A stretch of 64,000 nucleotides of DNA from Pseudomonas kribbensis (lineage in GTDB: Bacteria; Pseudomonadota; Gammaproteobacteria; Pseudomonadales; Pseudomonadaceae). Under the pieces are notes generated by a model. The model worked only from the letters and a program-made list of their open reading frames with translations. It was not told where the DNA came from and did not search any database. The stretch spans positions 2,108,001 through 2,172,000 of the forward strand of contig NZ_CP029608.1 in the NCBI RefSeq assembly GCF_003352185.1, given 5' to 3'. This document shows positions 9,242-64,000 of the stretch, piece after piece (the first letter of the stretch is position 1; every line of letters starts with the position of its first letter). A program made the translations under genes and the position numbers.

Positions 9242-11640
<2,399 letters not shown>

Positions 11641-50229: not shown

Positions 50230-50437
50230 GCAGGGTCGCGCCTTGGGTTGAGGGCTTATTTAGCTGACTGATGGCTGGCGACGAGAGTTCATCCGCAGAC
50301 ATGAAAAGATCGACAGCTTCGTGCCACAGCGATTGGCCCTGCACACCACAGGGACTTCACATTCCACCAACAATTCCTCGCTTTCCCGCCCGTCAGGCTT
50401 TGTGGCAAGTTGGCCGCCCCTGATGAGGCAACAACCG

Positions 50438-51610
50438 ATGGCAAACCCTTACCGCGAACTGTTCAACGCCCCCGGCGCCCGGGCCTTTGTGATGGCCGGG
50501 ATGATCGCGCGCATGCCGATTTCCATGACCGGCATCGGTGTGATCACCATGCTTTCGCAGTTGACCGGCGGCTATGCGCTGGCCGGTGGCGTGGCGGCAA
50601 CCTTCGCGTTGGCCACCGCATTCTGTGCGCCGCAGGTGTCGCGGCTGGTGGACCGTTACGGTCAGGGGCGGATCTTGCCGGTGTCGGCGCTGATCGGTGG
50701 TGGGGCGTTGCTGATGTTGTTGCTGTGCACCCGTTTGCAGGCGCCGAACTGGACGTTGTTCGTCTGCGCCGCGCTGGCCGGTTGCATGCCGAGCATGTCG
50801 GCGATGGTGCGGGCGCGCTGGACGGAAATCTATCGCGGCCAACCGCAATTGCAGACCGCTTATGCGCTGGAATCGGTGCTCGACGAAGTCTGCTTCATTG
50901 TCGGGCCACCGCTGTCGGTGGGGCTGTGCGTCGGCGTGTTTCCCGAGGCCGGGCCACTGGCAGCGCTGATAATGCTGGCCATCGGCGTGACGGCATTCGT
51001 TGCACAGCGCGGCACCGAGCCGCCGGTGCATCCTCATGAATCGCATCATCAGGGTTCGATCATTCGTTCCACCGACGTGCAATGGCTGCTGCTGTTGATG
51101 GTCGCCATGGGCATGATCGTCGGCGTGGTCGATGTGGTCAGCGTCGCGTTCGCCCAGCAGCAGGGGCAACCGGCGGCGGCGAGCATCGTGTTGTCGGTGT
51201 ATGCCATCGGCTCCTGCCTGGCCGGCATCGCGTTCGGGGCGATGCGCTCGAAGCTGCCGTTGCCGCGTCTGTTTCTTTACGGCGGTCTGGCGACCGCAGT
51301 GACCACGCTGCCGCTGTTGCTGGCGACCAACATCTTCGGTTTGGCCTTGGCGGTGTTCATTGCCGGACTGTTCTTCTCGCCGACCCTGATCGTGGCGATG
51401 GCGTTGATCGAACGCATCGTGCCGCCGGCCAAACTCACCGAAGGCCTGACCTGGCTGGTGACCGGCCTGAGCATCGGCGTGGCCATCGGCGCTGCCGGTT
51501 CCGGTGCGCTGGTGGATGCGTTCGGCGCCCGCAGCGGATTCTGGCTGGCGATAGTGGCCGGGGCGGTGGTGCTGGCGTCGGCGGTGCAGAGTTTCCGTCA
51601 CTTGAAGTGA
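50438..51610 (+). CDS. MFS transporter
   Basis: 390-residue major facilitator with about 12 transmembrane helices in two halves separated by a short charged loop (PPVHPHESHHQGSIIRSTD). The N-terminal half carries VDRYGQGRILPVSAL, similar to the MFS loop 2-3 signature. I chose the ATG at 50438 (MANPYRELFNAPGARAF); upstream ATGs at 50423 and 50321 have poorer context. It lies just upstream of the siderophore genes but is separated from them by an iron-starvation promoter. Export of siderophore is possible but not indicated. Confidence 0.85.
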   Translation: MANPYRELFNAPGARAFVMAGMIARMPISMTGIGVITMLSQLTGGYALAGGVAATFALATAFCAPQVSRLVDRYGQGRILPVSALIGGGALLMLLLCTRLQAPNWTLFVCAALAGCMPSMSAMVRARWTEIYRGQPQLQTAYALESVLDEVCFIVGPPLSVGLCVGVFPEAGPLAALIMLAIGVTAFVAQRGTEPPVHPHESHHQGSIIRSTDVQWLLLLMVAMGMIVGVVDVVSVAFAQQQGQPAAASIVLSVYAIGSCLAGIAFGAMRSKLPLPRLFLYGGLATAVTTLPLLLATNIFGLALAVFIAGLFFSPTLIVAMALIERIVPPAKLTEGLTWLVTGLSIGVAIGAAGSGALVDAFGARSGFWLAIVAGAVVLASAVQSFRHLK

Positions 51611-51682: not shown

Positions 51683-52423
51683 GTGACAAAGCTGACACTG
51701 CTGTGCCTGCCCTATTCGGGCGCCAGCGCCATGGTTTACAGCCGCTGGCGGCGCCAGTTGCCGTCGTGGATGCAACTGCAACCGGTGGAGTTGCCCGGGC
51801 GCGGCGCGCGCTACGACGAACCCCTGCAAATCGACATGCGGGCGCTGGCCCGGCAACTGGCCCGTGAGCTCAAACCCACATTGCAAACGCCGTACGCGTT
51901 GTTCGGGCATAGCCTGGGCGCGCTGCTGGCGTGCGAGCTGGCCCATGCCTTTCGCGATCTGGGCGCGCCCGAAGCGGTGGCGCTGTTTGCGTCCGGCACA
52001 GCGGCCCCGAGCATGCGCAGCGATTACGACCGTGGTTTTGCCGAGGCGCGCAGCGACGAGGAATTGATCGACCAGTTGCGCACCTTTCAGGGCACCAGCG
52101 AAGAAGTGCTGGCTAACCAGGAACTGATGAGCCTGACCCTGCCGGTGTTGCGTGCCGATTTCATGATGTGCGGCCGCTTCACACCGGTCGAACGGCCGCT
52201 GCTCAATTGCCCGGTGCATGTGCTGGGCGGCAAGGAAGACCGGGCGACCACCGAACAATTGATCGGTTGGAGCAAAGAGACCCTTGGCAGCTTCTCGGTG
52301 GACATGATGACCGGTGGGCACTTCTTCATTCATGAACATGAAGCCCGGGTCATCCGCACGCTCAAGAGTCACCTGGAAGTCCATCACCGGCGCCATGCGC
52401 TGTCGGCGGCACCGGCGTTGTGA
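51683..52423 (+). CDS. Type II thioesterase of a siderophore NRPS
   Basis: 246-residue editing thioesterase that clears misprimed carrier proteins. The alpha/beta fold has CLPYSGASAMVYSRW at the N-terminus, catalytic S77 in FGHSLGALLACELA, acid in GGKEDRAT and His in MTGGHFFIHEHE. It starts with GTG at 51683, 8 bp after GAGG. A PvdS-type promoter precedes it and the hydroxylase gene follows at 40 bp. In pyoverdine clusters this role is played by PvdG; orthology is not proved here. Confidence 0.92.
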   Translation: MTKLTLLCLPYSGASAMVYSRWRRQLPSWMQLQPVELPGRGARYDEPLQIDMRALARQLARELKPTLQTPYALFGHSLGALLACELAHAFRDLGAPEAVALFASGTAAPSMRSDYDRGFAEARSDEELIDQLRTFQGTSEEVLANQELMSLTLPVLRADFMMCGRFTPVERPLLNCPVHVLGGKEDRATTEQLIGWSKETLGSFSVDMMTGGHFFIHEHEARVIRTLKSHLEVHHRRHALSAAPAL

Positions 52424-52462: not shown

Positions 52463-53446
52463 ATGGCTGTTGCTGAGGGATTTTCCGTCCGTCCGTTGTT
52501 GCCGCAACGCGGTCGCCTGCCGCTGCTGGTGGAGGCGAGCGATGCCGATACGGATCTGCTGGCGGTGTTCGATGAACTGAAAGAGCTGGTGGATGAGCAT
52601 TTGCTGCGCGATGGCGGCCTGCTGTTTCGCGGGTTCCGTCTGGACGGTGCAGAACGCTTTCGCGAATTCGCGGCGAGCTTCGGCCATCCGCTGTTGAACT
52701 ACGAGTTTGGCTCCACGCCACGCACCAACGTGACCCAGGGTGTGTACACCTCCACCGAATACCCGGCGCACCAGAGTATTCCGCTGCACAACGAGCAGGC
52801 CTACTCCCGGGACTGGCCGATGAAGATCTGGTTCTACAGCATGATCGCGGCCAGATCCGGCGGCGAAACGCCGATTGCCGACAGTCGCGAAGTGTATCGG
52901 CGGATTCCGGTAGCGATCCGCGAACGTTTCGTCAGCAAGGGGCTGATGTACGTGCGCAATTTCGGCAACGGGCTGGATGTGGCCTGGGAGGATGTGTTCA
53001 ACACCGATGACCAGGCTGAAGTCGAAGCCTATTGCCAGGCCCACGGCATCATTTGCGAGTGGAAGGACGACGGAGAACTGCGCACTCGCCAGACCTGTCA
53101 GGCCGTGGCGCAGCATCCGGTCACTGGGGACATGGTCTGGTTCAATCAGGCGCACCTGTTCCACATTTCCAACCTGCAGCCGGAGGTGCGCGAGAGTCTG
53201 CTGGACATCGTCGATGAAGAGGACTTGCCGCGTAACGTCTATTACGGCGATGGCTCGCCCATCGAGGATGAGGTCCTGAGCCAGATCCGCGCGGTACTCG
53301 ATGAGTGCACCATCAGTTTTCCGTGGCAGGAGGGCGATGTGCTGATGCTCGACAACATGCTGTCGGCTCATGCCCGCTCGCCGTTCGAAGGCCCGCGCAA
53401 GGTCATCGTCGCCATGGCCGAGGGGCATTCGCAGGACGCGCTCTGA
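52463..53446 (+). CDS. SyrP-like Fe(II)/2-oxoglutarate aspartate beta-hydroxylase
   Basis: 327-residue TauD/SyrP-family dioxygenase. The iron site is H109 and E111 in PLHNEQAYSRDWP, with distal H303 and 2-oxoglutarate-binding R312 in SAHARSPFEGPRK. SyrP hydroxylates Asp while bound to an NRPS carrier. Here the next NRPS gene has an A-domain with an Asp code, so this enzyme probably makes beta-hydroxyaspartate, an iron ligand in many pyoverdines. The ATG at 52463 follows GAGGAGG. Co-transcribed with the thioesterase; a terminator follows. Confidence 0.9.
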   Translation: MAVAEGFSVRPLLPQRGRLPLLVEASDADTDLLAVFDELKELVDEHLLRDGGLLFRGFRLDGAERFREFAASFGHPLLNYEFGSTPRTNVTQGVYTSTEYPAHQSIPLHNEQAYSRDWPMKIWFYSMIAARSGGETPIADSREVYRRIPVAIRERFVSKGLMYVRNFGNGLDVAWEDVFNTDDQAEVEAYCQAHGIICEWKDDGELRTRQTCQAVAQHPVTGDMVWFNQAHLFHISNLQPEVRESLLDIVDEEDLPRNVYYGDGSPIEDEVLSQIRAVLDECTISFPWQEGDVLMLDNMLSAHARSPFEGPRKVIVAMAEGHSQDAL

Positions 53447-53552: not shown

Positions 53553-53576
53553 TAAATCGTTGCGTTTGTCATTCGT
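53553..53576 (+). promoter_or_regulatory. PvdS-type iron-starvation promoter before the NRPS genes
   Basis: Exact match: TAAAT (53553-53557), 16-bp spacer, CGT (53574-53576). It lies 58 bp upstream of the first NRPS start. PvdS is the ECF sigma factor for pyoverdine genes under iron limitation. Confidence 0.85.
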
Positions 53577-53633: not shown

Positions 53634-56600
53634 ATGAATGCCGCAGACGCACAGAAACTAGCCCGCCGCTTTATCGAATTGCCTCAGGACAAACGCCGTT
53701 TGTTCCTCGCCGGCATGGCCCGTGAAGGGATCAATTTTGCGCAGCTGCCCATGACCGCCTGCATCGGGGTCGCCGAGCGCGACGGCCTGTCCTATGCCCA
53801 GCAGCGGATGTGGTTTCTCTGGCAGATGGACCCGCAAAGTGCCGCCTACAACCTGCCGATGGCCGTGCGCCTGAGCGGTGAGTTGCAGCCCGAGGCGCTG
53901 GAGCAGGCGTTCAGTCGGTTGGTGGCGCGGCATGAGTGCCTGCGCACGACGTTCGGGCAGGAAGGCGAACAGGCCTTCCAGAAAGTCGCCGAACCGCAGC
54001 CCGTCAAATTGACCCTCACTGACCTGAGCGTGTTGCCCGAGGATCAGCGCTGGCCGCTGGCCCGGCAGCACATGATGGCCGAGGCCACGCAAGCCTTCGA
54101 TCTGGAGAACGGGCCGTTGCTGAGCCTGCGCCTGCTGCGGCTGGATGCGCAGGAACACGTGCTGTTGCTGACGCTGCACCACATCATCGCCGACGGCTGG
54201 TCGATGAACATTCTCATCGATGAATTCATGCGCACCTACGCAGCGCTGGTGGCGGGAACGGAGCCGCAATTGCCGCCGATCACCGTGCACTACCGCGACT
54301 ACGCGCTGTGGCAACGCAGTTGGCTGGAGGCGGGTGAGGGCGAGCGTCAGCTCGACTACTGGCGTACGCAACTGGGTGACGAACACCCGGTGCTTGAACT
54401 GCCGACCGATCGTGCCTACCCGGCCCAGGCCAGTCATCGTGGCGCGCGTCTGGAAACGGTGATCGACGCCGACCTGCGGCAGGAGCTGAAAAACCTCGCA
54501 CAACGTCAGGGCGTGACCCTGTTCGTGGTCTTGCTGGCGGCGTTCAAGACCTTGTTGCATCGCTACAGTGGCCAGACCGACATCCGGGTCGGCGGCCTGA
54601 TTGCCAACCGTACCCGCAGTGAAACCGAAGGCCTGATCGGCTTCTTCGTCAATACGCAGATCCTGCGCAGCGTGGTCACCGCCAATACCCGCTTTGCCGA
54701 TCTGTTGCAGAGCGTGCGCCAGGCCGCTGCCGGCGCGCAGTCCCATCAGGATCTGCCGTTCGATGCCTTGATCGAAGCCTTGCAACCGGCCCGCAGCCAG
54801 AGTCACAACCCGCTGTTCCAGGTGATGTTCAACCATCAGCCGCTGGTGACCGATTTGCAGCAGGCGCAGCTGACGGCCGGCTTGCAGGTCGGTTACCTGA
54901 CCGAAGAACAACTGACCGGCAGCGGTCGTGAGCACGCGGCCACCAGCGACCTGATGCTCGATACCCGGGAAGAGGGCGAGCAACTGTTCGCCGCGTTCAC
55001 CTACGCCACCGACATTTTCGACGCGTCCACCATTGCCGCGCTGGCCGGGCACTGGCGCAACGTGCTGGTCTCGGTCTGCCGCGATCCGCAGCAGTTGATC
55101 GGCGAGGTTTCGATGCTGGCCGCTGCCGAACGCGAAGGCCTGATTCAGGTCGCCGAAACCAGCCCTCCACAGGCCAGCATTCAGGCCCTGTTCGAAGCCC
55201 AGGTGGCGCGTACACCCGAGGCATTGGCGGTGGTTCTGGCGAACGAGGCGGCGCCTTCGATCAGCTATGCCGAACTGAACCGGCGCAGCAATCGTCTGGC
55301 CCACCAACTGCGTGCGCAGGGTGTCGGCCCGGACGTGCTGGTCGGCGTGGCGCTGGGGCGTTCGCTGGAACTGGCGGTCGCCTTGCTCGGCGTGCTCAAG
55401 GCCGGCGGCGCCTATGTGCCGCTGGATCCGCAAACCCCGCCCGAGCGCTTGCGCCACGTGCTCGACGACAGTGGCTTGAAACTGTTGTTGACCGACCGCC
55501 AGACACTGGCCGCTCTGCCAACCCTCGACGGCGTCGAGAGCCTGTGCCTGGACACGCTGCCGGACAGCGGCGCCAGTGACAATCTGCCGGTGACCGTCGC
55601 GCCGCAAAACCTGGCTTACGTGATCTACACCTCCGGTTCGACCGGGCGGCCCAAAGGCGTGGCGATCAGTCACGCCGCCCTGAGCGAGTTCATCGAGCGC
55701 GCCATCGACTACAGCGACCTGCGCGAAGGCGACCGGGTGCTGCAGTTCGCGACCAGCAGTTTCGACGGGTTTGTCGAGCAGTTCTTCCCGCCGCTGTGCC
55801 ACGGTGCCGGCGTGGTGCTGCGCGACGCGCGTCTGTGGGACAGCGCGACGTTGCATCAAGCCATCCTCGAGCACGGCATCACCCTGGCCGACTTGCCAGC
55901 GGCGTACTGGTACTGGCTGGTGCAGGAATACGCGGCCAATCCGCCGGCGCATTTCGGTGCGCTGCGCCAGATTCACGTGGGTGGCGAGGCCATGGCGGTG
56001 GACGGTCTGCGTCTGTGGCAACAGGCCGGGCTGGGTCATGTGCGCCTGCTCAACACCTACGGGCCGACCGAGGCCACGGTCGTATCGACCATCCATGACT
56101 GCTCGACGCTCACCGCAGACGCTGTGTCGTGGCGTGGCATTCCGATTGGCCATGGCCTGGCTGGCCGTCGCCTGTACGTGCTGGACGATGATTTGAACCT
56201 GCTGCCGCAAGGCGCGGTGGGCGAGCTGTACATCGGCGGCCCGGGCCTGGCGCGGGGTTATCACCGCCAGCCGATGCTGAGCGCCGAACGTTTCATCGCC
56301 GATCCGTTTGCCCGTGGCGAACGCCTGTATCGCACCGGGGATCGTGCCCGTTTGCGCGCCGACGGTGCCGTGGAATACGTCGGTCGTGTCGACCATCAGG
56401 TGAAGATCCGCGGTTTCCGGATCGAGCTGGGCGAGATCGAGTCACGCCTGCAGCAATGCCCGGGTGTTCGCGAAGCGGTGGTGCTGGCCTTGCCGCTGAA
56501 CGGCAGTCAGCAATTGGTGGCGTATCTGGTGGTCGATCAGGACGTGCTGGAGGGCGTGGCCGGGCAGTCGGCGTTCCGTCAGCAGATCAGGACGGCGCTG

Positions 56601-57035
56601 CAAGCCAGGCTGCCGGACTACATGGTGCCGGGTCATCTGCTGCTGTTGGCGCAATTGCCGCTGACCCCGAGCGGCAAGCTCGACCGCAAGGCGTTGCCGG
56701 CGCCGGACGTGGACCAATTGCAGGTCGACTACCGGGCCCCGCAATCGGACATCGAACAAGCCCTGGCGCAGATCTGGGCGGATGTCCTGCAAGTGCCCCG
56801 GGTCGGGCTGGACGATCACTTCTTCGAACTCGGCGGCCATTCGCTGCTGGCGGCCCAGGTGATCGGCCGCATCAAGAAACAACTGAACGTGGTGTTGCCG
56901 CTGCGCAACCTGTTCGAACAACCGTTGCTCGGCGATCTGGCTCAGGCGGTGGCACAGCTGGCCGAGGGTGCAACGGATAACGACTGGTCCGACATGGACC
57001 TGTTCATGAATGAATTGGAAGGAGAAGAAGTATGA
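53634..57035 (+). CDS. Nonribosomal peptide synthetase, single module C-A-T (Lys-type code)
   Basis: 1133-residue one-module NRPS. A short N-terminal docking-like segment is followed by a condensation domain of the LCL type (LSYAQQRMWFLWQM, active HHIIADGWS at residue 182). The adenylation domain has YVIYTSGSTGRPKG, NTYGPTE and PSGKLDRKALP, and the carrier domain has S1070 in LGGHSLL. Pocket residues read against GrsA are D-G-E-D-H-G-T-V-V-K: acidic at 239 and 278, as in Lys/Orn-activating domains. There is no epimerase, so an L-residue is expected. The C-terminal MNELEGEEV tail resembles a docking helix. The stop overlaps the next start (ATGA). By position it is PvdI-like. Confidence 0.92.
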   Translation: MNAADAQKLARRFIELPQDKRRLFLAGMAREGINFAQLPMTACIGVAERDGLSYAQQRMWFLWQMDPQSAAYNLPMAVRLSGELQPEALEQAFSRLVARHECLRTTFGQEGEQAFQKVAEPQPVKLTLTDLSVLPEDQRWPLARQHMMAEATQAFDLENGPLLSLRLLRLDAQEHVLLLTLHHIIADGWSMNILIDEFMRTYAALVAGTEPQLPPITVHYRDYALWQRSWLEAGEGERQLDYWRTQLGDEHPVLELPTDRAYPAQASHRGARLETVIDADLRQELKNLAQRQGVTLFVVLLAAFKTLLHRYSGQTDIRVGGLIANRTRSETEGLIGFFVNTQILRSVVTANTRFADLLQSVRQAAAGAQSHQDLPFDALIEALQPARSQSHNPLFQVMFNHQPLVTDLQQAQLTAGLQVGYLTEEQLTGSGREHAATSDLMLDTREEGEQLFAAFTYATDIFDASTIAALAGHWRNVLVSVCRDPQQLIGEVSMLAAAEREGLIQVAETSPPQASIQALFEAQVARTPEALAVVLANEAAPSISYAELNRRSNRLAHQLRAQGVGPDVLVGVALGRSLELAVALLGVLKAGGAYVPLDPQTPPERLRHVLDDSGLKLLLTDRQTLAALPTLDGVESLCLDTLPDSGASDNLPVTVAPQNLAYVIYTSGSTGRPKGVAISHAALSEFIERAIDYSDLREGDRVLQFATSSFDGFVEQFFPPLCHGAGVVLRDARLWDSATLHQAILEHGITLADLPAAYWYWLVQEYAANPPAHFGALRQIHVGGEAMAVDGLRLWQQAGLGHVRLLNTYGPTEATVVSTIHDCSTLTADAVSWRGIPIGHGLAGRRLYVLDDDLNLLPQGAVGELYIGGPGLARGYHRQPMLSAERFIADPFARGERLYRTGDRARLRADGAVEYVGRVDHQVKIRGFRIELGEIESRLQQCPGVREAVVLALPLNGSQQLVAYLVVDQDVLEGVAGQSAFRQQIRTALQARLPDYMVPGHLLLLAQLPLTPSGKLDRKALPAPDVDQLQVDYRAPQSDIEQALAQIWADVLQVPRVGLDDHFFELGGHSLLAAQVIGRIKKQLNVVLPLRNLFEQPLLGDLAQAVAQLAEGATDNDWSDMDLFMNELEGEEV

Positions 57036-60000
57036 GCGGCAACATGGCGGAGCGTATCGCTAAAAGGTTCGTCGGTTTGCCGCTTGAGCAGCGCCGGCAG
57101 TTTCTGGCCAGGTTGCGCGATGAAGGCAAGGACTTCAGCCTGTTGCCGCTGCCGGTCAGTCGTCACGATTGTGCGCAGATCCCGTTGTCGTTCGCCCAGC
57201 AGCGTCTGTTGTTTCTCTGGCAGCTCGAACCGCAGAGCACCGCGTACAACATGGCCGCCGGCCTGCGCCTGAAAGGGCGGCTGGATGAGTCGGCGCTGAC
57301 CCGCTCGCTGGATCATCTGATGGCGCGTCATGAAGTGCTGCGCACGGTGTTTCGCACCGACGGTGACCAGCCGCATCAGGTGATTCTCGAATCCCAGGGT
57401 GTCGCGCTGGAACGCATCGATTTGACCGGTGTTGCCGCGCAGGAACGTGAGCAGGCCCTGGCCGAGCAAGTGCAGAAGGTGACCGCGCAGCCGTTCGATC
57501 TGCGTCATGGTCCGCTGTTGCGCGCCAGTCTGTTTTGCCTGGCCGACGATGAGTTCGTGCTGGTGGTGAGCATGCATCACATCGTCTCCGACGGCTGGTC
57601 GATGGACGTGATGGTCAAGGAATTCGTGCAGTGCTACCAGGCGTTCAGCCTGGAACGCGAGCCGCAATTGCCGGAACTGGCCTTGCAATACGCCGACTAC
57701 GCCATCTGGCAGCGGCGCTGGCTGGAAGCGGGCGAGGGCGAGCGTCAGCTCGATTACTGGCGCCGGCAACTGGGCGAGGAACATCCGCTGCTGGAAGTCG
57801 CCCCGGACTTTGCCCGGCCGCTGACTCAAAGTTTTGAAGGCCGGACCCTGAGTTTCGATTTCGGCGCGGACCTGTCGCGTCAGCTCAACGGCTTCGCCCG
57901 TGCGCAAGGCATCAGCCTGTTCATGCTGGTGCTCGCCGGTTTCTCGCTGTTCCTGTCGCGTCAGGCTGGGGAGCGTGACATCCGCGTCGGCGTGCCCAAT
58001 GCCAACCGCAGCCGCGCCGAAGTCGAAGGGCTGATCGGCTTCTTCGTCAACACCCAGGTGCTGCGCTGCGAGGTGGACGAGCGGGGCAGTTTCGAGGACC
58101 TGCTGGCGCGGGTGCGTGAGGCATCGTTTGGCGCCCAGGCCCATCAGGAACTGCCGTTCGAACAACTGGTGGACGAACTGATCGCCGAACGCACCCTGGG
58201 ACATAACCCGTTGTTCCAGGCCAAGTTCAACCAGAACGTCGGCATGCAGAAGCAACGCTCGATGGCGCTGCCGGGCCTGAGCGTGGCGGAATACCCGCTG
58301 GACAAGGACGGCACCCACTTCGATCTGGCGCTGGACATCACCGACGACGGCACGCTGATCCATGGGCAGATGACCTACGCCAGCGACCTCTATCAGCACG
58401 CGACTGTCGAAGGCTTCGTCCCGGCGTTGCTCGGGTTGTTCGGCGCATTGCTGAAGGCGCCGCAAGCGCCGTTGCACACGGTGGCAACGGTTACGCCAAA
58501 CGCTCTGGCGGCACCGTGCGAACCGGCACCGTCGGTGCTGCAGCACTGGGCGCGCGAAGTTGCGCGCCAGCCGCAGGCAATGGCCGCCCGTGACCTGAAC
58601 GGCGGGCTGAGCTTTCAGGCACTGGATCAGGCTGCAAATCGTCTTGCGCATCATCTGCTGGCCCAAGGCGCAGTTGTCGGTCAACCGGTGGCGGTGTTGA
58701 TGGAGCGTTCGCTGGACTGGCTGACCTGCGTGCTGGCGATCTTCAAGGCCGGAGCGGTGTACATGCCGCTGGACGTCAAGGCCCCGACGGCACGCTTGCA
58801 GCAGATGCTCGGCGCTGCCAAGGCTCGGGTAGTGGTGTGTGCCGAGGGGGATTCGCGGGTTTCGGAACTTACGGTCGCCGGTTGTCAGGGGCTGGCGTTC
58901 GATGCGACGCAATGGCAACAGCAGTCAGTGACGGCCCCGGTCTGCGAGTTGTCGGCGCAATCCCCGGCCTATGTGATTCACACCTCCGGCTCCACCGGCC
59001 AGCCCAAGGGGGTTCTGGTCAGCCACGGTGCGTTGGCCAGCTATGTGCGCGGGGTGCTCGAGCGTCTCGAACCGACGCCGGACACCAGCATGGCGCTGGT
59101 GTCCACCGTCGCGGCGGACCTGGGTTTCACCGTGCTGTTCGGCGCGTTGTGTTCCGGCCGCTTGCTGCATGTGTTGCCGGAAGAACTGGGCTTCGATCCG
59201 GACCGTTTCGCCGAGTACATGGCCAGCCATCGGGTGGGCATGCTGAAGATTGTTCCGGGGCATCTCGCTGCGTTGCTGCAGGCATCCCGCGCGGCAGATG
59301 TGCTGCCGGAGCAGGCGCTGATCGTCGGCGGCGAAGCCTGTTCGCCGGCGCTGGTGGAGCGTGTGCGGCAACTCAAGCCGGGCTGCCGGATCATCAACCA
59401 CTACGGCCCGAGTGAAACCACCGTGGGCGTGCTGGCCCATGAAGTCGGCTCGCTGGAAACCGGTGTGCGCAGCGTGCCGGTCGGCACGGCGCTGGCCGGG
59501 GCCCATGTGTATGTGCTCGACGATGTGCTCAACAGCGTGGCCGATCAGGTTGCGGGTGAGCTGTACATCGGCGGTGACAGTGTCGCCCTCGGCTATCTCG
59601 GTCAACCGGGGCTGACGGCCGAACGTTTCGTGCCTGATCCGTTCGGGGCGGCCGGTGCGCGGGTGTATCGCAGCGGCGACCGGGTGCGCCGCAATCGCCG
59701 GCAGGCGGTGGAATTCATCGGTCGCGCCGACGATCAGGTCAAGGTGCGCGGCTATCGGGTGGAGCCGGCGGAAGTCGCCCGGGTGCTGCTGGGGCAGGAC
59801 GGTGTCAGCGAAGCGGCGGTGCTTGCACTGGCGATGGATGACGACCCGACACGCCTGCAACTGGTGGCCTGGTGCGTGCCGGCGGCGGGTGCTGCGTTGA
59901 AGCCCGAAAACCTGCGCGAACAACTGCAAGCCTGTCTGCCGGATTACATGGTGCCGGCGCAGATTGTCGTGCTGGAGCAATTGCCGCTGACGGCCAACGG

Positions 60001-63000
60001 CAAACTGGACAAGCGCGCCTTGCCGGTGCCGGGTGTGGTGACGCAGCGTTATGTTGCGCCGGTAGGCGAGGTGGAGGAAAAGCTCGCGGCAATCTGGGCC
60101 GATGTGCTCAAGCTCGAGCGTGTGGGCAGCACCGACAACTTCTTCGAATTGGGCGGGGACTCGATCCTCAGCCTGCAAATCATTGCCCGGGCCAAGCGTC
60201 AGGGCATCAAGCTGAGCCCCAAGCAACTGTTCGAGAAACAGACCGTCGGCCAACTGGCGGCGGTGGCCAAGCTGGTCGAAGCCAAACCCGTGGCGGCAGC
60301 GCCGAAGAAAGTCGGCGGGCAACTGGCATTGCTGCCGATTCAGGCACGCTTCTTTGAAACCCCGATTGCCCGGCGCGAGCACTGGAACCAGTCGTTGATG
60401 CTGCAACCGCAGGTGCCGCTCGATGCCGGACATTTGCAAGCCGCCCTGGCGGCCGTGGTCGAGCAGCATGATGCGCTGACCTTGAATTTCCAGGCGTCGG
60501 GTGATGGGTGGCAGGCCACCTTCCAGACGCAACGCGACCCCGAACGGCTGTGGGTGCGCGAGCTGGACAACCTGGAGCAACTGACCGAGCTGGCGGATCT
60601 GGCGCAGCGCAGTCTGGATCTGCAGCAAGGGCGATTACTGCGTGCGGTGCTGGCGAATCTGCCGGGCGGTGAGCAACGCTTGTTGCTGGTGATCCATCAC
60701 CTGGTGGTCGATGGCGTGTCCTGGCGCATCCTGCTGGAAGATCTGCAATCCGCTTACACCGCACTGGCCGCCGGCCAACCGCTGGTGTGGCCGGGCAAGA
60801 GCAGCTCGCTGCAGAGCTGGGCCGAGCATCTGCATCGTTACGGGCAGAGTGAAGCGCTGAACGCGGAGCGCGCGTACTGGCTGAAAACCCTGAGCGACGG
60901 CGACGCCGAGTTGCCACGGGACTTTGCGCAAGATGTGCAGACTCAGGAGCAGGCGCAACGCGTCAGTTCACGCCTGAGCCAGGCGCTGACTCACAAACTG
61001 CTCAAGGTGGCTCCGTCCGCCTATCGCACGCAGATCAATGATCTGTTGCTCACTGCGCTGGCAAGGGTGTTGTGCGACTGGAGCCGGCAGCCGTCGGTGC
61101 TGATCCAGCTGGAAGGGCATGGTCGCGAAGACCTGTTCGACGATCTCGATCTGAGCCGTACTGTGGGCTGGTTCAGCAGCCTGTTCCCGGTACGCCTGAC
61201 GCCACAGACGACGCCGGGCGAATCGCTGTGCGCGATCAAGGAGCAACTGCGCGCCGTGCCGGGCAAAGGCATCGGCTACGGCGTGCTGCGTTACTTGAGT
61301 GACGCGACCGAGCTGCGTTCGCTGGCGCCGCCACGAGTGACGTTCAACTATCTGGGGCAGTTCGACGGCGATTTCAACGCCGCCGAGGGTGCGCTGTTCG
61401 TGCCGTCCGGTGACAGCACCGGGGCCAATCAGGACGCTGCGGCGCCATTGGGCAACTGGCTGAGCATTGACGGTCAGGTGTACGGCGGCGAGCTGGAACT
61501 GACCTGGACGTTCGGTGCAGACATGTACCGCGTCGAAACGATGCAGGCGCTGGCCGACGCTTACCGGATCGAGCTGGAGCGCTTGATCGAGCACTGCTGT
61601 GACAGCAGCCACGCTGGCGTCACGCCGTCGGATTTCAGTCTGGCTACCCTGACTCAGGCGCAACTCTCGGCACTGCCGATCCCGGCCCGGGAAATCAGCG
61701 ACCTGTATCCGTTGTCGCCGATGCAGCAAGGCATTCTGTTCCACAGTCTCAACGATCCCGACAGCCCGGCGTACATCAACCAGTTGCGGGTCGACGTGCA
61801 GCATCTGCAGATCGAGCGTTTCCGTCAGGCCTGGCAGCAGACCCTCGACGCCCACGACATTCTGCGCACGGCGTTTGTCTGGCCGGGCGATGCCGCCGCG
61901 GCGGTGCAAGTGGTTCGCCAGAACGTGCAGATGCCATGGAGCGTGCAGGACTGGCGTGGCCGCAACGACCTCGACAGTGCACTGGAGCAACTGGCCGGTG
62001 ACGATCTGGCCAACGGTTTCGAGCTGAGCGGTGCGCCGCTGTTGCGGGTTGCCCTGGTGCGTACGGACGAGTCGACGCATCACCTGATCTACACCTGTCA
62101 TCACATCCTGATGGACGGCTGGAGTACTTCGCAGTTGTTCGGCGAGGTGTTGCAGCGGTATGCGGGTATGACCCCGGCCAGCGCTCAGGGGCGTTACCGC
62201 GATTACATCGAATGGTTGGGCCAGCGTGATCAGCCTGCCAGCCAGGCGTTCTGGAAACAGGCGCTGGCCGAGCTTGAAGAGCCGACGCGACTGGCCAGTG
62301 CCGTGCCTGCGCCGCTGACCGGCGCTGGCGGTTATGCCGACCACCAGCATGTGTTCAGCGAGCAACTGACGGCGGATCTGAACCGCTTCGCACGGGAGCA
62401 GAAAGTCACCTTCAACACCCTGGTGCAAGCGGCGTGGCTGGTGCTGTTGCAGCGTTATACCGGTCAGGATCACGTGGCCTTCGGTGCCACGGTCGCCGGT
62501 CGCCCGACCGATTTGCCCGGCGTCGAGCAGCAGATCGGCCTGTTCATCAATACCTTGCCGGTGGTGGCCGCGCCGTCCGCCGACTTGTCGGTGGAACAGT
62601 GGTTGCAGCACGTGCAGGGCCTCAACCTGGCGCTGCGTGAACACGAACACACGCCGCTGTATGACATTCAGCGCTGGGCCGGACTCGGCGCCGGGGCGTT
62701 GTTCGACAGCATTCTGGTGTTCGAGAACTATCCGATGGCCGAAGCCCTGCAACAGGGGCCGGATACCGGTCTGGTGTTCTCGGCGATCCGTCGACAGGAG
62801 CAGACCAACTACCCGTTGACGCTGGTGGCGGTCACCGGTCGTGAGTTGAGCCTGGGCGTCAGTTACGATCAGGCCTGTTTCTCGGCCTCGACCATTGTCG
62901 ATCTGGGCCGACAGCTCGAACGCCTGCTGCGCCAGTTCCTCGACAACGCCACGCAAGCGCTGGGCGCGTTGCAATTGCTCGACGAGCCGCAGCGCGGGCA

Positions 63001-64000
63001 AGCGATTGCCTGGGGCAAGGCGGAAGTCACGGCGCTGGCGCCGCGCACGGTACTGGAATTTATCGAAGAACGTGTCGCGCAACGACCTGACGCACCGGCG
63101 GTGGTGTATGCCGAACAGCAGATCGACTATCGCGCGCTCGACCAGCGGGCCAATCGTCTGGCGTACAAGCTGCAGGCGCTGGGCGTGGGGGTGGAAGTGC
63201 GGGTCGGCGTGTGCATGCGCCGCACCCCGGACATGCTGGTGGCGCTGCTGGCGATCCTCAAGGCCGGTGGCGCCTATGTGCCGCTGGACCCGGACTACCC
63301 GCAGGAACGTTTGCTGCACATGCTCGACGACAGCCGTGCGGCGGTGCTGCTGACCGAGCCGGCGGCGCAGGCGATGCTGCCCGAGACATTGAGTGCCCGG
63401 GTGGTGCTGGTGGAGGCGGGCGAGCAGTGGCTGGCCGGTTATCCTTCCACCGCGCCGGTGGCCGGTATCACCGGGCAGAACCTGGCCTATGTCATCTACA
63501 CCTCGGGTTCCACCGGCAAGCCGAAAGGCGTCGCCATCAGCCACGCCAACCTCTCGGCGTTGATCCAGTGGTCGCAAGGGGTCTACCGCGAGGAACAATT
63601 GCGCGGCGTGCTGGCGTCGACTTCTATCTGCTTCGACCTGTCGGTGTGGGAGATCTTTGTCACCCTGGCCAGCGGCGGCTGCATGGTGCTGGCGGACAAC
63701 GCGCTGGCCCTGGCGGACTTGCCGGCCCGGGAACGGGTCACGCTGATCAACACCGTGCCGTCGGCGATTGCCGCGCTGCAACGGGCAGAGCAGATTCCGG
63801 CATCGGTCACGACCATCAACCTGGCCGGTGAACCGCTGAAGCAGAGCCTGGTGGACACCCTGTATGCGACCACGGCGGTCCGGCAGGTCTACGACCTGTA
63901 CGGGCCATCGGAAGACACGACCTATTCGACGTTCACCCTGCGCACTGCGCAAGGTCAGGCCAATATCGGCCGGCCGCTGGCCAACACCGTGGCGTACCTG
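57032..64000 (+). CDS. Nonribosomal peptide synthetase, C-A-T-E-C-A... (Asp, then Ala-like; 3' end outside window)
   Basis: At least 2323 residues, open at the right edge. Module 1: LCL-type C domain (HHIVSDGWS); A domain with pocket D-L-T-K-I-G-H-V-G-K, nearly the classic Asp code DLTKVGHIGK; carrier S1044 in LGGDSILS; and an epimerisation domain (HHLVVDGVSW at residue 1222). Module 2: DCL-type C domain (YPLSPMQQGILFHS; HHILMDGWS at residue 1690), as expected after an epimerase, then an A domain with pocket D-L-W-N-N-A-L-T-Y, closest in my memory to Ala codes. The sequence ends in this A domain. Product order is therefore D-Asp (probably beta-hydroxylated in trans) then an Ala-like residue. 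More modules must follow. Confidence 0.93.
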   Translation, partial: MSGNMAERIAKRFVGLPLEQRRQFLARLRDEGKDFSLLPLPVSRHDCAQIPLSFAQQRLLFLWQLEPQSTAYNMAAGLRLKGRLDESALTRSLDHLMARHEVLRTVFRTDGDQPHQVILESQGVALERIDLTGVAAQEREQALAEQVQKVTAQPFDLRHGPLLRASLFCLADDEFVLVVSMHHIVSDGWSMDVMVKEFVQCYQAFSLEREPQLPELALQYADYAIWQRRWLEAGEGERQLDYWRRQLGEEHPLLEVAPDFARPLTQSFEGRTLSFDFGADLSRQLNGFARAQGISLFMLVLAGFSLFLSRQAGERDIRVGVPNANRSRAEVEGLIGFFVNTQVLRCEVDERGSFEDLLARVREASFGAQAHQELPFEQLVDELIAERTLGHNPLFQAKFNQNVGMQKQRSMALPGLSVAEYPLDKDGTHFDLALDITDDGTLIHGQMTYASDLYQHATVEGFVPALLGLFGALLKAPQAPLHTVATVTPNALAAPCEPAPSVLQHWAREVARQPQAMAARDLNGGLSFQALDQAANRLAHHLLAQGAVVGQPVAVLMERSLDWLTCVLAIFKAGAVYMPLDVKAPTARLQQMLGAAKARVVVCAEGDSRVSELTVAGCQGLAFDATQWQQQSVTAPVCELSAQSPAYVIHTSGSTGQPKGVLVSHGALASYVRGVLERLEPTPDTSMALVSTVAADLGFTVLFGALCSGRLLHVLPEELGFDPDRFAEYMASHRVGMLKIVPGHLAALLQASRAADVLPEQALIVGGEACSPALVERVRQLKPGCRIINHYGPSETTVGVLAHEVGSLETGVRSVPVGTALAGAHVYVLDDVLNSVADQVAGELYIGGDSVALGYLGQPGLTAERFVPDPFGAAGARVYRSGDRVRRNRRQAVEFIGRADDQVKVRGYRVEPAEVARVLLGQDGVSEAAVLALAMDDDPTRLQLVAWCVPAAGAALKPENLREQLQACLPDYMVPAQIVVLEQLPLTANGKLDKRALPVPGVVTQRYVAPVGEVEEKLAAIWADVLKLERVGSTDNFFELGGDSILSLQIIARAKRQGIKLSPKQLFEKQTVGQLAAVAKLVEAKPVAAAPKKVGGQLALLPIQARFFETPIARREHWNQSLMLQPQVPLDAGHLQAALAAVVEQHDALTLNFQASGDGWQATFQTQRDPERLWVRELDNLEQLTELADLAQRSLDLQQGRLLRAVLANLPGGEQRLLLVIHHLVVDGVSWRILLEDLQSAYTALAAGQPLVWPGKSSSLQSWAEHLHRYGQSEALNAERAYWLKTLSDGDAELPRDFAQDVQTQEQAQRVSSRLSQALTHKLLKVAPSAYRTQINDLLLTALARVLCDWSRQPSVLIQLEGHGREDLFDDLDLSRTVGWFSSLFPVRLTPQTTPGESLCAIKEQLRAVPGKGIGYGVLRYLSDATELRSLAPPRVTFNYLGQFDGDFNAAEGALFVPSGDSTGANQDAAAPLGNWLSIDGQVYGGELELTWTFGADMYRVETMQALADAYRIELERLIEHCCDSSHAGVTPSDFSLATLTQAQLSALPIPAREISDLYPLSPMQQGILFHSLNDPDSPAYINQLRVDVQHLQIERFRQAWQQTLDAHDILRTAFVWPGDAAAAVQVVRQNVQMPWSVQDWRGRNDLDSALEQLAGDDLANGFELSGAPLLRVALVRTDESTHHLIYTCHHILMDGWSTSQLFGEVLQRYAGMTPASAQGRYRDYIEWLGQRDQPASQAFWKQALAELEEPTRLASAVPAPLTGAGGYADHQHVFSEQLTADLNRFAREQKVTFNTLVQAAWLVLLQRYTGQDHVAFGATVAGRPTDLPGVEQQIGLFINTLPVVAAPSADLSVEQWLQHVQGLNLALREHEHTPLYDIQRWAGLGAGALFDSILVFENYPMAEALQQGPDTGLVFSAIRRQEQTNYPLTLVAVTGRELSLGVSYDQACFSASTIVDLGRQLERLLRQFLDNATQALGALQLLDEPQRGQAIAWGKAEVTALAPRTVLEFIEERVAQRPDAPAVVYAEQQIDYRALDQRANRLAYKLQALGVGVEVRVGVCMRRTPDMLVALLAILKAGGAYVPLDPDYPQERLLHMLDDSRAAVLLTEPAAQAMLPETLSARVVLVEAGEQWLAGYPSTAPVAGITGQNLAYVIYTSGSTGKPKGVAISHANLSALIQWSQGVYREEQLRGVLASTSICFDLSVWEIFVTLASGGCMVLADNALALADLPARERVTLINTVPSAIAALQRAEQIPASVTTINLAGEPLKQSLVDTLYATTAVRQVYDLYGPSEDTTYSTFTLRTAQGQANIGRPLANTVAYL

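Follow-up and report, generated by a model that had tools for sequence, protein, structure and literature searches.

How does a pyoverdine peptide leave a nonribosomal peptide synthetase (NRPS) line that has no thioesterase (TE) domain at its end? The question is raised by a locus of Pseudomonas kribbensis that begins in the 64,000-nucleotide stretch analyzed here (the window, bases 2108001-2172000 of the 6.32-Mb single-contig genome) and continues into the next 33 kb past the window end, which we also read. Its predicted peptide is that of pseudobactin B10, its last synthetase stops at an epimerization (E) domain, and the gene that follows encodes an alpha/beta hydrolase. Taken as a whole, the evidence is best explained, we think with somewhat better than even probability, if the locus encodes the side-chain synthetase for a pyoverdine of the pseudobactin B10 type and the hydrolase releases the chain with its last residue, N5-hydroxyornithine (OHOrn), closed to the cyclic form (cOHOrn). 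The genes on which the argument turns are listed here; C, A, and T stand for condensation, adenylation, and carrier domains, five-digit positions are numbered in the window, and seven-digit positions in the contig.

53634..57035, plus strand: NRPS 1, module 1, C-A(Lys, DGEDHGTVV)-T, 1133 aa (domain matches, pocket alignment)
57032..64867, window-numbered (G000:C1:2165032-2172867), plus strand: NRPS 2, modules 2-3, C-A(Asp, DLTKIGHVG)-T-E-C-A(DLWNNALTY, read as Ala)-T, 2611 aa
G000:C1:2172881-2185207 (window-numbered 64881-77207), plus strand: NRPS 3, modules 4-6, 4108 aa, ending in E
2185283-2186239, plus strand: alpha/beta hydrolase, 318 aa, the next gene, 75 bases after NRPS 3

An ordered series of modules in such long reading frames, each domain matched over its whole length by Pfam, is far beyond chance. 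An earlier note on this DNA, confined to the window, had described module 1 as C-A-T with a basic pocket, module 2 as C-A-T-E with an Asp pocket, and module 3 as a DCL-type C-A with an Ala-like pocket. Re-reading by alignment gave DGEDHGTVV, DLTKIGHVG, and DLWNNALTY for the three pockets, and module 3 is C-A-T once NRPS 2, whose last 867 bases lie beyond position 64000, is followed past the window. In a tree of C domains, that of module 3 belongs to a clade containing every one of the tree's 23 members known to come after an E domain, together with 28 that do not. Since the A10 motif and its lysine are found in all six modules, the ten-letter form of the codes stands as well. The note's forecast for the DNA it lacked, namely Thr (with E), Ala, and hydroxyornithine modules, had been tied in advance to a refutation test, and that test was run on NRPS 3, just past the window, with the forecast upheld: module 4 is C-A-T-E with the pocket DFWNVGMVH (Thr), module 5 is C-A-T without E and has the pocket DLWNNALTY, identical to that of module 3 and likewise read as Ala, and module 6 is C-A-T-E with the pocket DGECCGGVT, of the hydroxyornithine type. 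The statement that only the Asp module has an epimerase is right for the window and wrong for the whole line, which has three E domains, in modules 2, 4, and 6.

Pseudobactin B10 has been known since 1981, the year of the crystal structure of its ferric complex, and its full L/D assignment, which the earlier note also gave, is L-Lys, D-threo-OHAsp, L-Ala, D-allo-Thr, L-Ala, D-OHOrn. The peptide predicted here has the same six residues in the same order and the same configuration at all six positions, including the D-OHOrn end. The A domains are ordered Lys-Asp-Ala-Thr-Ala-OHOrn (the Ala and OHOrn pockets being assigned by code family), E domains occur at residues 2, 4, and 6 (D-OHAsp, D-aThr, D-OHOrn) and at no others, an E domain in the last module is what D-OHOrn demands, and both an Asp beta-hydroxylase and an Orn N5-oxygenase are encoded. 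The comparison is one of a predicted peptide with a known structure. We read DLWNNALTY as Ala by way of what we take to be its code family, DLFNNALTYK; neither DLWNNALTY nor DGECCGGVT was found in the open-licence literature searched, and the OHOrn reading of the latter rests on similarity and place. The other codes have closer precedents. The Lys and Asp pockets match modules 1923 and 1924 of P. syringae 1448a (Table 2 of PMC3207962), whose modules agree with the structure inferred from MS/MS (PMC3207962, Conclusions); DFWNIGMV(HK), one letter off the pocket of module 4, is given as a Thr code in PMC3207962 and PMC12283262; and DGEACGGVTK appears among the codes for Orn derivatives in PMC12283262. 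Table 2 of PMC4219678 gives the B10 peptide as epsilon-Lys-OHAsp-Ala-aThr-Ala-cOHOrn, 989 Da.

There is a very small chance that the product is close to B10 without being identical to it, one pocket having been misread; DLWNNALTY, for example, might load another small residue, given that its Ala reading depends on a presumed code family, and Lys and Orn pockets are said in PMC11444679 to be indistinguishable. Against this, both DLWNNALTY modules stand exactly where B10 has Ala, and the match extends to the remaining four residues and to every E domain. That the residue order of the locus is that of pseudobactin B10 we consider very probable from the module codes.

Module 5 has a feature of its own. 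Its carrier domain (window-numbered ~72470-73160, NRPS 3 residues ~2530-2760) is presumably of the E-associated type, an assignment we make from the motif LGGDSIISIQLVSRARQ, and is fused directly to a DCL-lineage C domain. This C domain groups with those that take D donors, and the T-to-C spacing is 209 residues versus ~650 with an intervening E domain. The fusion is shared with five relatives (L177, L179, L180, L181, L183), and the close loci L178 and L182 carry an E domain there. An E domain seems to have been lost here, leaving L-Ala at position 5 and a DCL-type C domain that takes an L donor.

We are almost as confident that the line is TE-less and ends in D-OHOrn as we are of its residue order. 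The match to the last E domain runs to 2185204, the final base before the stop codon, so that NRPS 3 ends in E and lacks the C-terminal TE of a PvdD-type last synthetase. No PF00975 match occurs in NRPS 1-3; the nearest is a stand-alone PvdG-like protein at 51683-52423. An artefact at the end of the frame was considered and rejected, the hydrolase being a separate gene after the stop codon and the identical end being found in 38 genomes. Nor is the last C domain a dual E/C domain, for it has an ordinary DCL-type N-terminus (by eye, against the known motifs). The terminal E domain retains EGHGRE and other motifs, again by eye. Its HHxxxDG motif reads HHLVVDT (window-numbered ~76283-76312); DA or DG stands there in some other terminal E domains.

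The hydrolase matches PF07859 with 232.5 bits against a cut-off of 25 and belongs to the bacterial hormone-sensitive-lipase (Abhydrolase_3) family. It has the HGGG oxyanion motif, a GxSxG serine in the form GDS[AV]G, and the catalytic Asp and His. The residues H88-G91, S162, D260, and H290 are invariant in 31 hydrolase sequences, and among the 114 hydrolases of the survey described below H88, S162, and D260 are present in all and H290 in 113, the exception being G034. Its relatives with solved structures include EH1AB1 (6i8d, E 1.2e-65), a serine hydrolase (1evq, E 1.4e-57), EST2 (1qz3, E 4.2e-57), and LAE6, and the AlphaFold model has a mean pLDDT of 92. No NCBIfam model reached its cut-off on the four hydrolases tried, the best being LipP1 with 302 of 350 bits. 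The esterases EST2, EH1AB1, and Est8 belong to the same family but are general esterases, whereas the hydrolase discussed here lies among pyoverdine genes in the 114 surveyed genomes. By eye it has no obvious signal peptide and should therefore work in the cytoplasm, the compartment of peptide assembly.

Does the hydrolase keep company with this kind of peptide end elsewhere? A close homologue (E<=1e-80) was found in 114 of 298 Pseudomonas genomes, our own included, and the neighborhoods of all 114 were read; at most seven first-look candidates per genome were scored in this survey, which makes its absences incomplete. The gene lies directly downstream of an NRPS in 105 of the 114, and these synthetases end in E (38) or in TE (67), the E-ended lines having been found by way of the hydrolase and with no query of their own. 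The code of the final A domain is DGE[CA]CGG[VI]T in all 105; 103 were read by script and two (G091, G142) by eye, since a motif variant hid the last domain from the script. Eight of the remaining nine hydrolases lie beside PvdN and one lies at a contig edge beside an FpvA-like gene, and in all nine genomes a DGECCGGVT-T-TE terminus is found elsewhere. An OHOrn-coded terminal module is thus present in every one of the 114 hydrolase-positive genomes. The TE-ended lines (e.g., L100, L102, L105, L113) resemble ours in their terminal DGE[CA]CGGVT code and in that a gene of the same hydrolase family comes next; unlike ours, they keep the TE, have no terminal E domain, and carry hydrolases that lie off the E-linked branch described below.

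A contig scan gave at least 80 loci, at least 20 of them with NRPS similarity. Codes were read in ten named Pseudomonas loci, and all ten agree, three being E-ended (P. entomophila 6C6, P. dryadis, P. folii) and seven TE-ended, although some may duplicate numbered genomes. Another P. entomophila strain, L48, is listed with a cOHOrn end in PMC4219678. Two ideas were discarded along the way. That the hydrolase occurs only with TE-less lines was suggested by the 30 top loci, all E-ended, and was rejected when the weaker matches proved to be mostly TE-ended; that the cases without an upstream NRPS are unrelated esterases does not fit their places beside PvdN or the FpvA-like gene. Outside Pseudomonas, L142 (Bradyrhizobium sp. 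190) has a relative at 10001-10936 with 46% identity, and an NRPS-like match ends ~0.9 kb upstream of it; among the matches listed, at least nine other non-Pseudomonas loci also have NRPS similarity somewhere in the stretch.

As controls we took 100 of the 184 genomes without a strict match. The first 20 were searched for PvdL, which is clearly present in six (>=76% identity). In these six the last module beside the FpvA-like gene has a Ser code (five genomes) or DILQLGVIW (one), which we take to be Gly-like; all are TE-ended, with no hydrolase beside them. In the other 80, an OHOrn-T-TE terminus query, for which at most 12 candidates per genome were scored (all candidates were scored in the further control-genome searches), matched at no less than 54% and through the TE in four, G053, G067, G076, and G117. 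The terminal code is DGEACGGVT in three of these; in G076, at a contig edge, it is unreadable. A weaker hydrolase stands directly behind the terminus in exactly these four (in two frames in G076), and G023, from the first 20, has one behind a DGEACGGVT-TE end. A weaker hydrolase therefore occurs in five of the 100 controls, always behind a TE terminus, with the OHOrn code in all four readable cases. The other matched OHOrn modules continue into further NRPS domains or into the next NRPS gene, and weak matches in G013, G027, and G135, with no pyoverdine gene in their 1.5-kb flanks, were left out of the counts. Among readable cases, DGE[CA]CGG[VI]T is the code of 118 of 118 hydrolase-positive termini versus none of nine hydrolase-negative ones, which are Ser (five), Gly-like (one), or of another Orn type (three); the Fisher p of 6e-14 overstates the evidence, because the rows share descent and the hydrolase was itself the basis on which 114 were selected.

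The hydrolases themselves divide by the kind of synthetase end that they accompany. A tree of 85 sequences was built from 69 of the first 70 contexts (L035 was dropped for its broken frame) and 16 named loci, 44 later genomes lying outside it. All 37 E-linked hydrolases fall on one side of a single branch (support 56; none of 500 label shuffles scored as low), and 35 of the 37 form a clade with support 98. Thirteen positions separate 38 E-linked from 76 other hydrolases almost completely. Five of the eight PvdN-adjacent hydrolases are in the tree, and all five fall among the TE-linked ones, matching their distant TE-ended NRPS. This placement fits a matching of hydrolase to substrate; common descent, with one switch on the tree, explains it too.

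From these observations we can propose how the peptide might be made and released. The chain would be begun by the PvdL-like protein and extended by L-Lys, D-threo-OHAsp, L-Ala, D-allo-Thr, L-Ala, and D-N5-OHOrn, the terminal E domain setting the configuration of the last residue. The cytoplasmic hydrolase encoded next would then take over or activate the peptidyl thioester, and the N5-hydroxylamine of OHOrn would attack the carbonyl, so that the peptide would be released as the six-membered, iron-binding cyclic hydroxamate. Missing TE, intact catalytic residues, and genomic association are all observed; it is from the association and the tree that we infer a trans-acting release role. On this footing we suggest that the hydrolase is a factor for peptides ending in cOHOrn and, in lines without a TE, probably the enzyme that releases or cyclizes them; that it catalyzes release or cyclization itself is, in our judgment, an even call. 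We would be more tentative, leaning slightly against, about a broader proposal: that a dedicated, stereochemically matched hydrolase is a missing pyoverdine enzyme and makes cOHOrn in trans in every cOHOrn line, the TE being dispensable in about a third of them (38 of the 105 adjacent cases), in which the chain ends on E and would leave as D-cOHOrn.

Several observations weigh against a releasing hydrolase. TE-ended lines carry the gene as regularly as E-ended ones (67 directly behind and nine detached); the hydrolase is therefore not simply a TE substitute, and what it does in both kinds of line may not be release. In the tree, E-linked and TE-linked hydrolases part only once, and genes that are neighbors move together. 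In G034 (locus L035), an E-ended genome, the hydrolase frame is broken before the catalytic His; the broken frames there and in G076 (L347/L339) are either sequencing errors or broken genes. G045 and G077 (DGECTGGIT) and G071 (DGEGSGGVT) have TE-ended lines (loci L322, L323, and L334, respectively) but lack a hydrolase at E<=1e-55; in L322 and L334 the line adjoins an FpvA-like gene. Both codes appear among those for Orn derivatives in PMC12283262, and if they load OHOrn for cyclization, the three genomes are exceptions. P. putida GB-1 makes a cOHOrn pyoverdine, yet a TonB receptor is named downstream of its last NRPS in PMC4019867; a hydrolase may sit elsewhere, as in the eight detached cases. 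Between NRPS 3 and the hydrolase there is, in addition, a weak terminator-like hairpin with a T run (L023:13236-13250), of a kind no more numerous than in shuffled sequence.

Release might also need no enzyme. The N5-hydroxylamine could attack its own thioester to close the six-membered ring, a chemically easy step for so good a nucleophile, while the hydrolase does something else common to cOHOrn pyoverdines, such as clearing mis-acylated or stalled carriers. That the hydrolase accompanies both kinds of line with equal regularity (of 105, 67 are TE-ended and 38 E-ended) speaks for spontaneous release, as does the broken frame of G034 unless it is a sequencing error. We nevertheless think it rather unlikely: the hydrolase is present in all 118 genomes with a readable DGE[CA]CGG[VI]T terminus (114 of them found via the hydrolase), it is missing beside the six Ser- or Gly-like-ended clusters, and its sequence varies according to whether the line ends in E or in TE, a sign that it touches the C-terminal residue. 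A second candidate, the PvdG-like type II thioesterase, is encoded where the cluster begins, and no other free thioesterase lies nearer. That it releases the peptide in trans is improbable, for PvdG is also present in PAO1, whose last NRPS carries a TE, and so does not track the missing TE, and type II thioesterases usually hydrolyze, so that the expected product would be a linear acid and not cOHOrn. Release by the adjacent hydrolase remains the explanation we prefer.

The other genes of the locus, and the PvdL-like protein encoded far from it, are the following.

50321..51610, plus strand: MFS transporter gene (PF07690, E 4.8e-30; longest frame, the actual start probably further in)
51683..52423, plus strand: stand-alone type II thioesterase, PvdG-like (PF00975, E 5.2e-41)
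52463..53446, plus strand: SyrP-type aspartate beta-hydroxylase, TauD family (PF02668, E 3.9e-51)
53553..53576, plus strand: PvdS-type iron-starvation promoter box, TAAAT-N16-CGT, 57 bases ahead of the start codon of NRPS 1
2186305-2188785, minus strand: FpvA-like receptor
2188899-2190548, minus strand: PvdE-type exporter
2190660-2191547, minus strand: PvdO (above the NCBIfam equivalog cut-off)
2191585-2192958, minus strand: PvdN (above the NCBIfam equivalog cut-off)
2192868-2194532, minus strand: PvdM-like
2194434-2196080, plus strand: PvdP (above the NCBIfam equivalog cut-off)
2196139-2200825, minus strand: efflux genes
2201476-2202957 (L024:16476-17957), plus strand: ornithine N5-oxygenase (PF13434)
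G000:C1:4348006-4361142, minus strand: PvdL-like protein, 4379 aa

The Asp hydroxylase adjoins the NRPS genes, as the earlier note had said. The PvdG-like gene is the sole one of nine PF00975 matches in the genome to lie near the pyoverdine cluster. Chance would give 1.85 occurrences per window of a loose form of the box pattern (N15-18), and it is the position alone that supports the box; the same PvdS-type box is named for P. putida GB-1 in PMC4019867. The genome has two more NRPS clusters, at G000:C1:2529720-2566786 and 2625499-2645443, the former lipopeptide-like, with two consecutive TE matches at its end.

The cluster is of the same type as those of PvdD in P. aeruginosa PAO1 and the last synthetase of P. 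syringae 1448a, with a PvdL head, and it shares a SyrP-like hydroxylase and Lys and Asp modules with 1448a; unlike the TE-ended synthetases of those two strains, NRPS 3 stops at E and a hydrolase gene follows. A precedent exists in coelichelin, a TE-less hydroxamate line in which a separate alpha/beta hydrolase, the stand-alone esterase CchJ, has been proposed to release the product of CchH. CchJ belongs to another esterase family, and coelichelin is not a pyoverdine and is not known to end in cOHOrn. The open-licence literature searched yielded no description of TE-less release in pyoverdine lines or of this hydrolase, which is weak evidence of absence.

A 2024 genus-wide survey takes the thioesterase as the end marker of a pyoverdine line (PMC11444679), and a 2025 paper ascribes closure of the OHOrn ring to the TE domain (section 11 of PMC12283262); TE-less lines with a terminal E domain fit neither statement. 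The same survey notes that no pipeline, its own included, can distinguish between formyl-, acetyl-, and cyclic OHOrn, and the hydrolase gene may serve as a simple marker for cOHOrn ends. The peptide itself is already known, and what this genome supplies is the synthetase for a well-known structure. With it, how the cyclic hydroxamate at the C-terminus comes to be formed, being one of three iron ligands in the pyoverdine, becomes a testable question.

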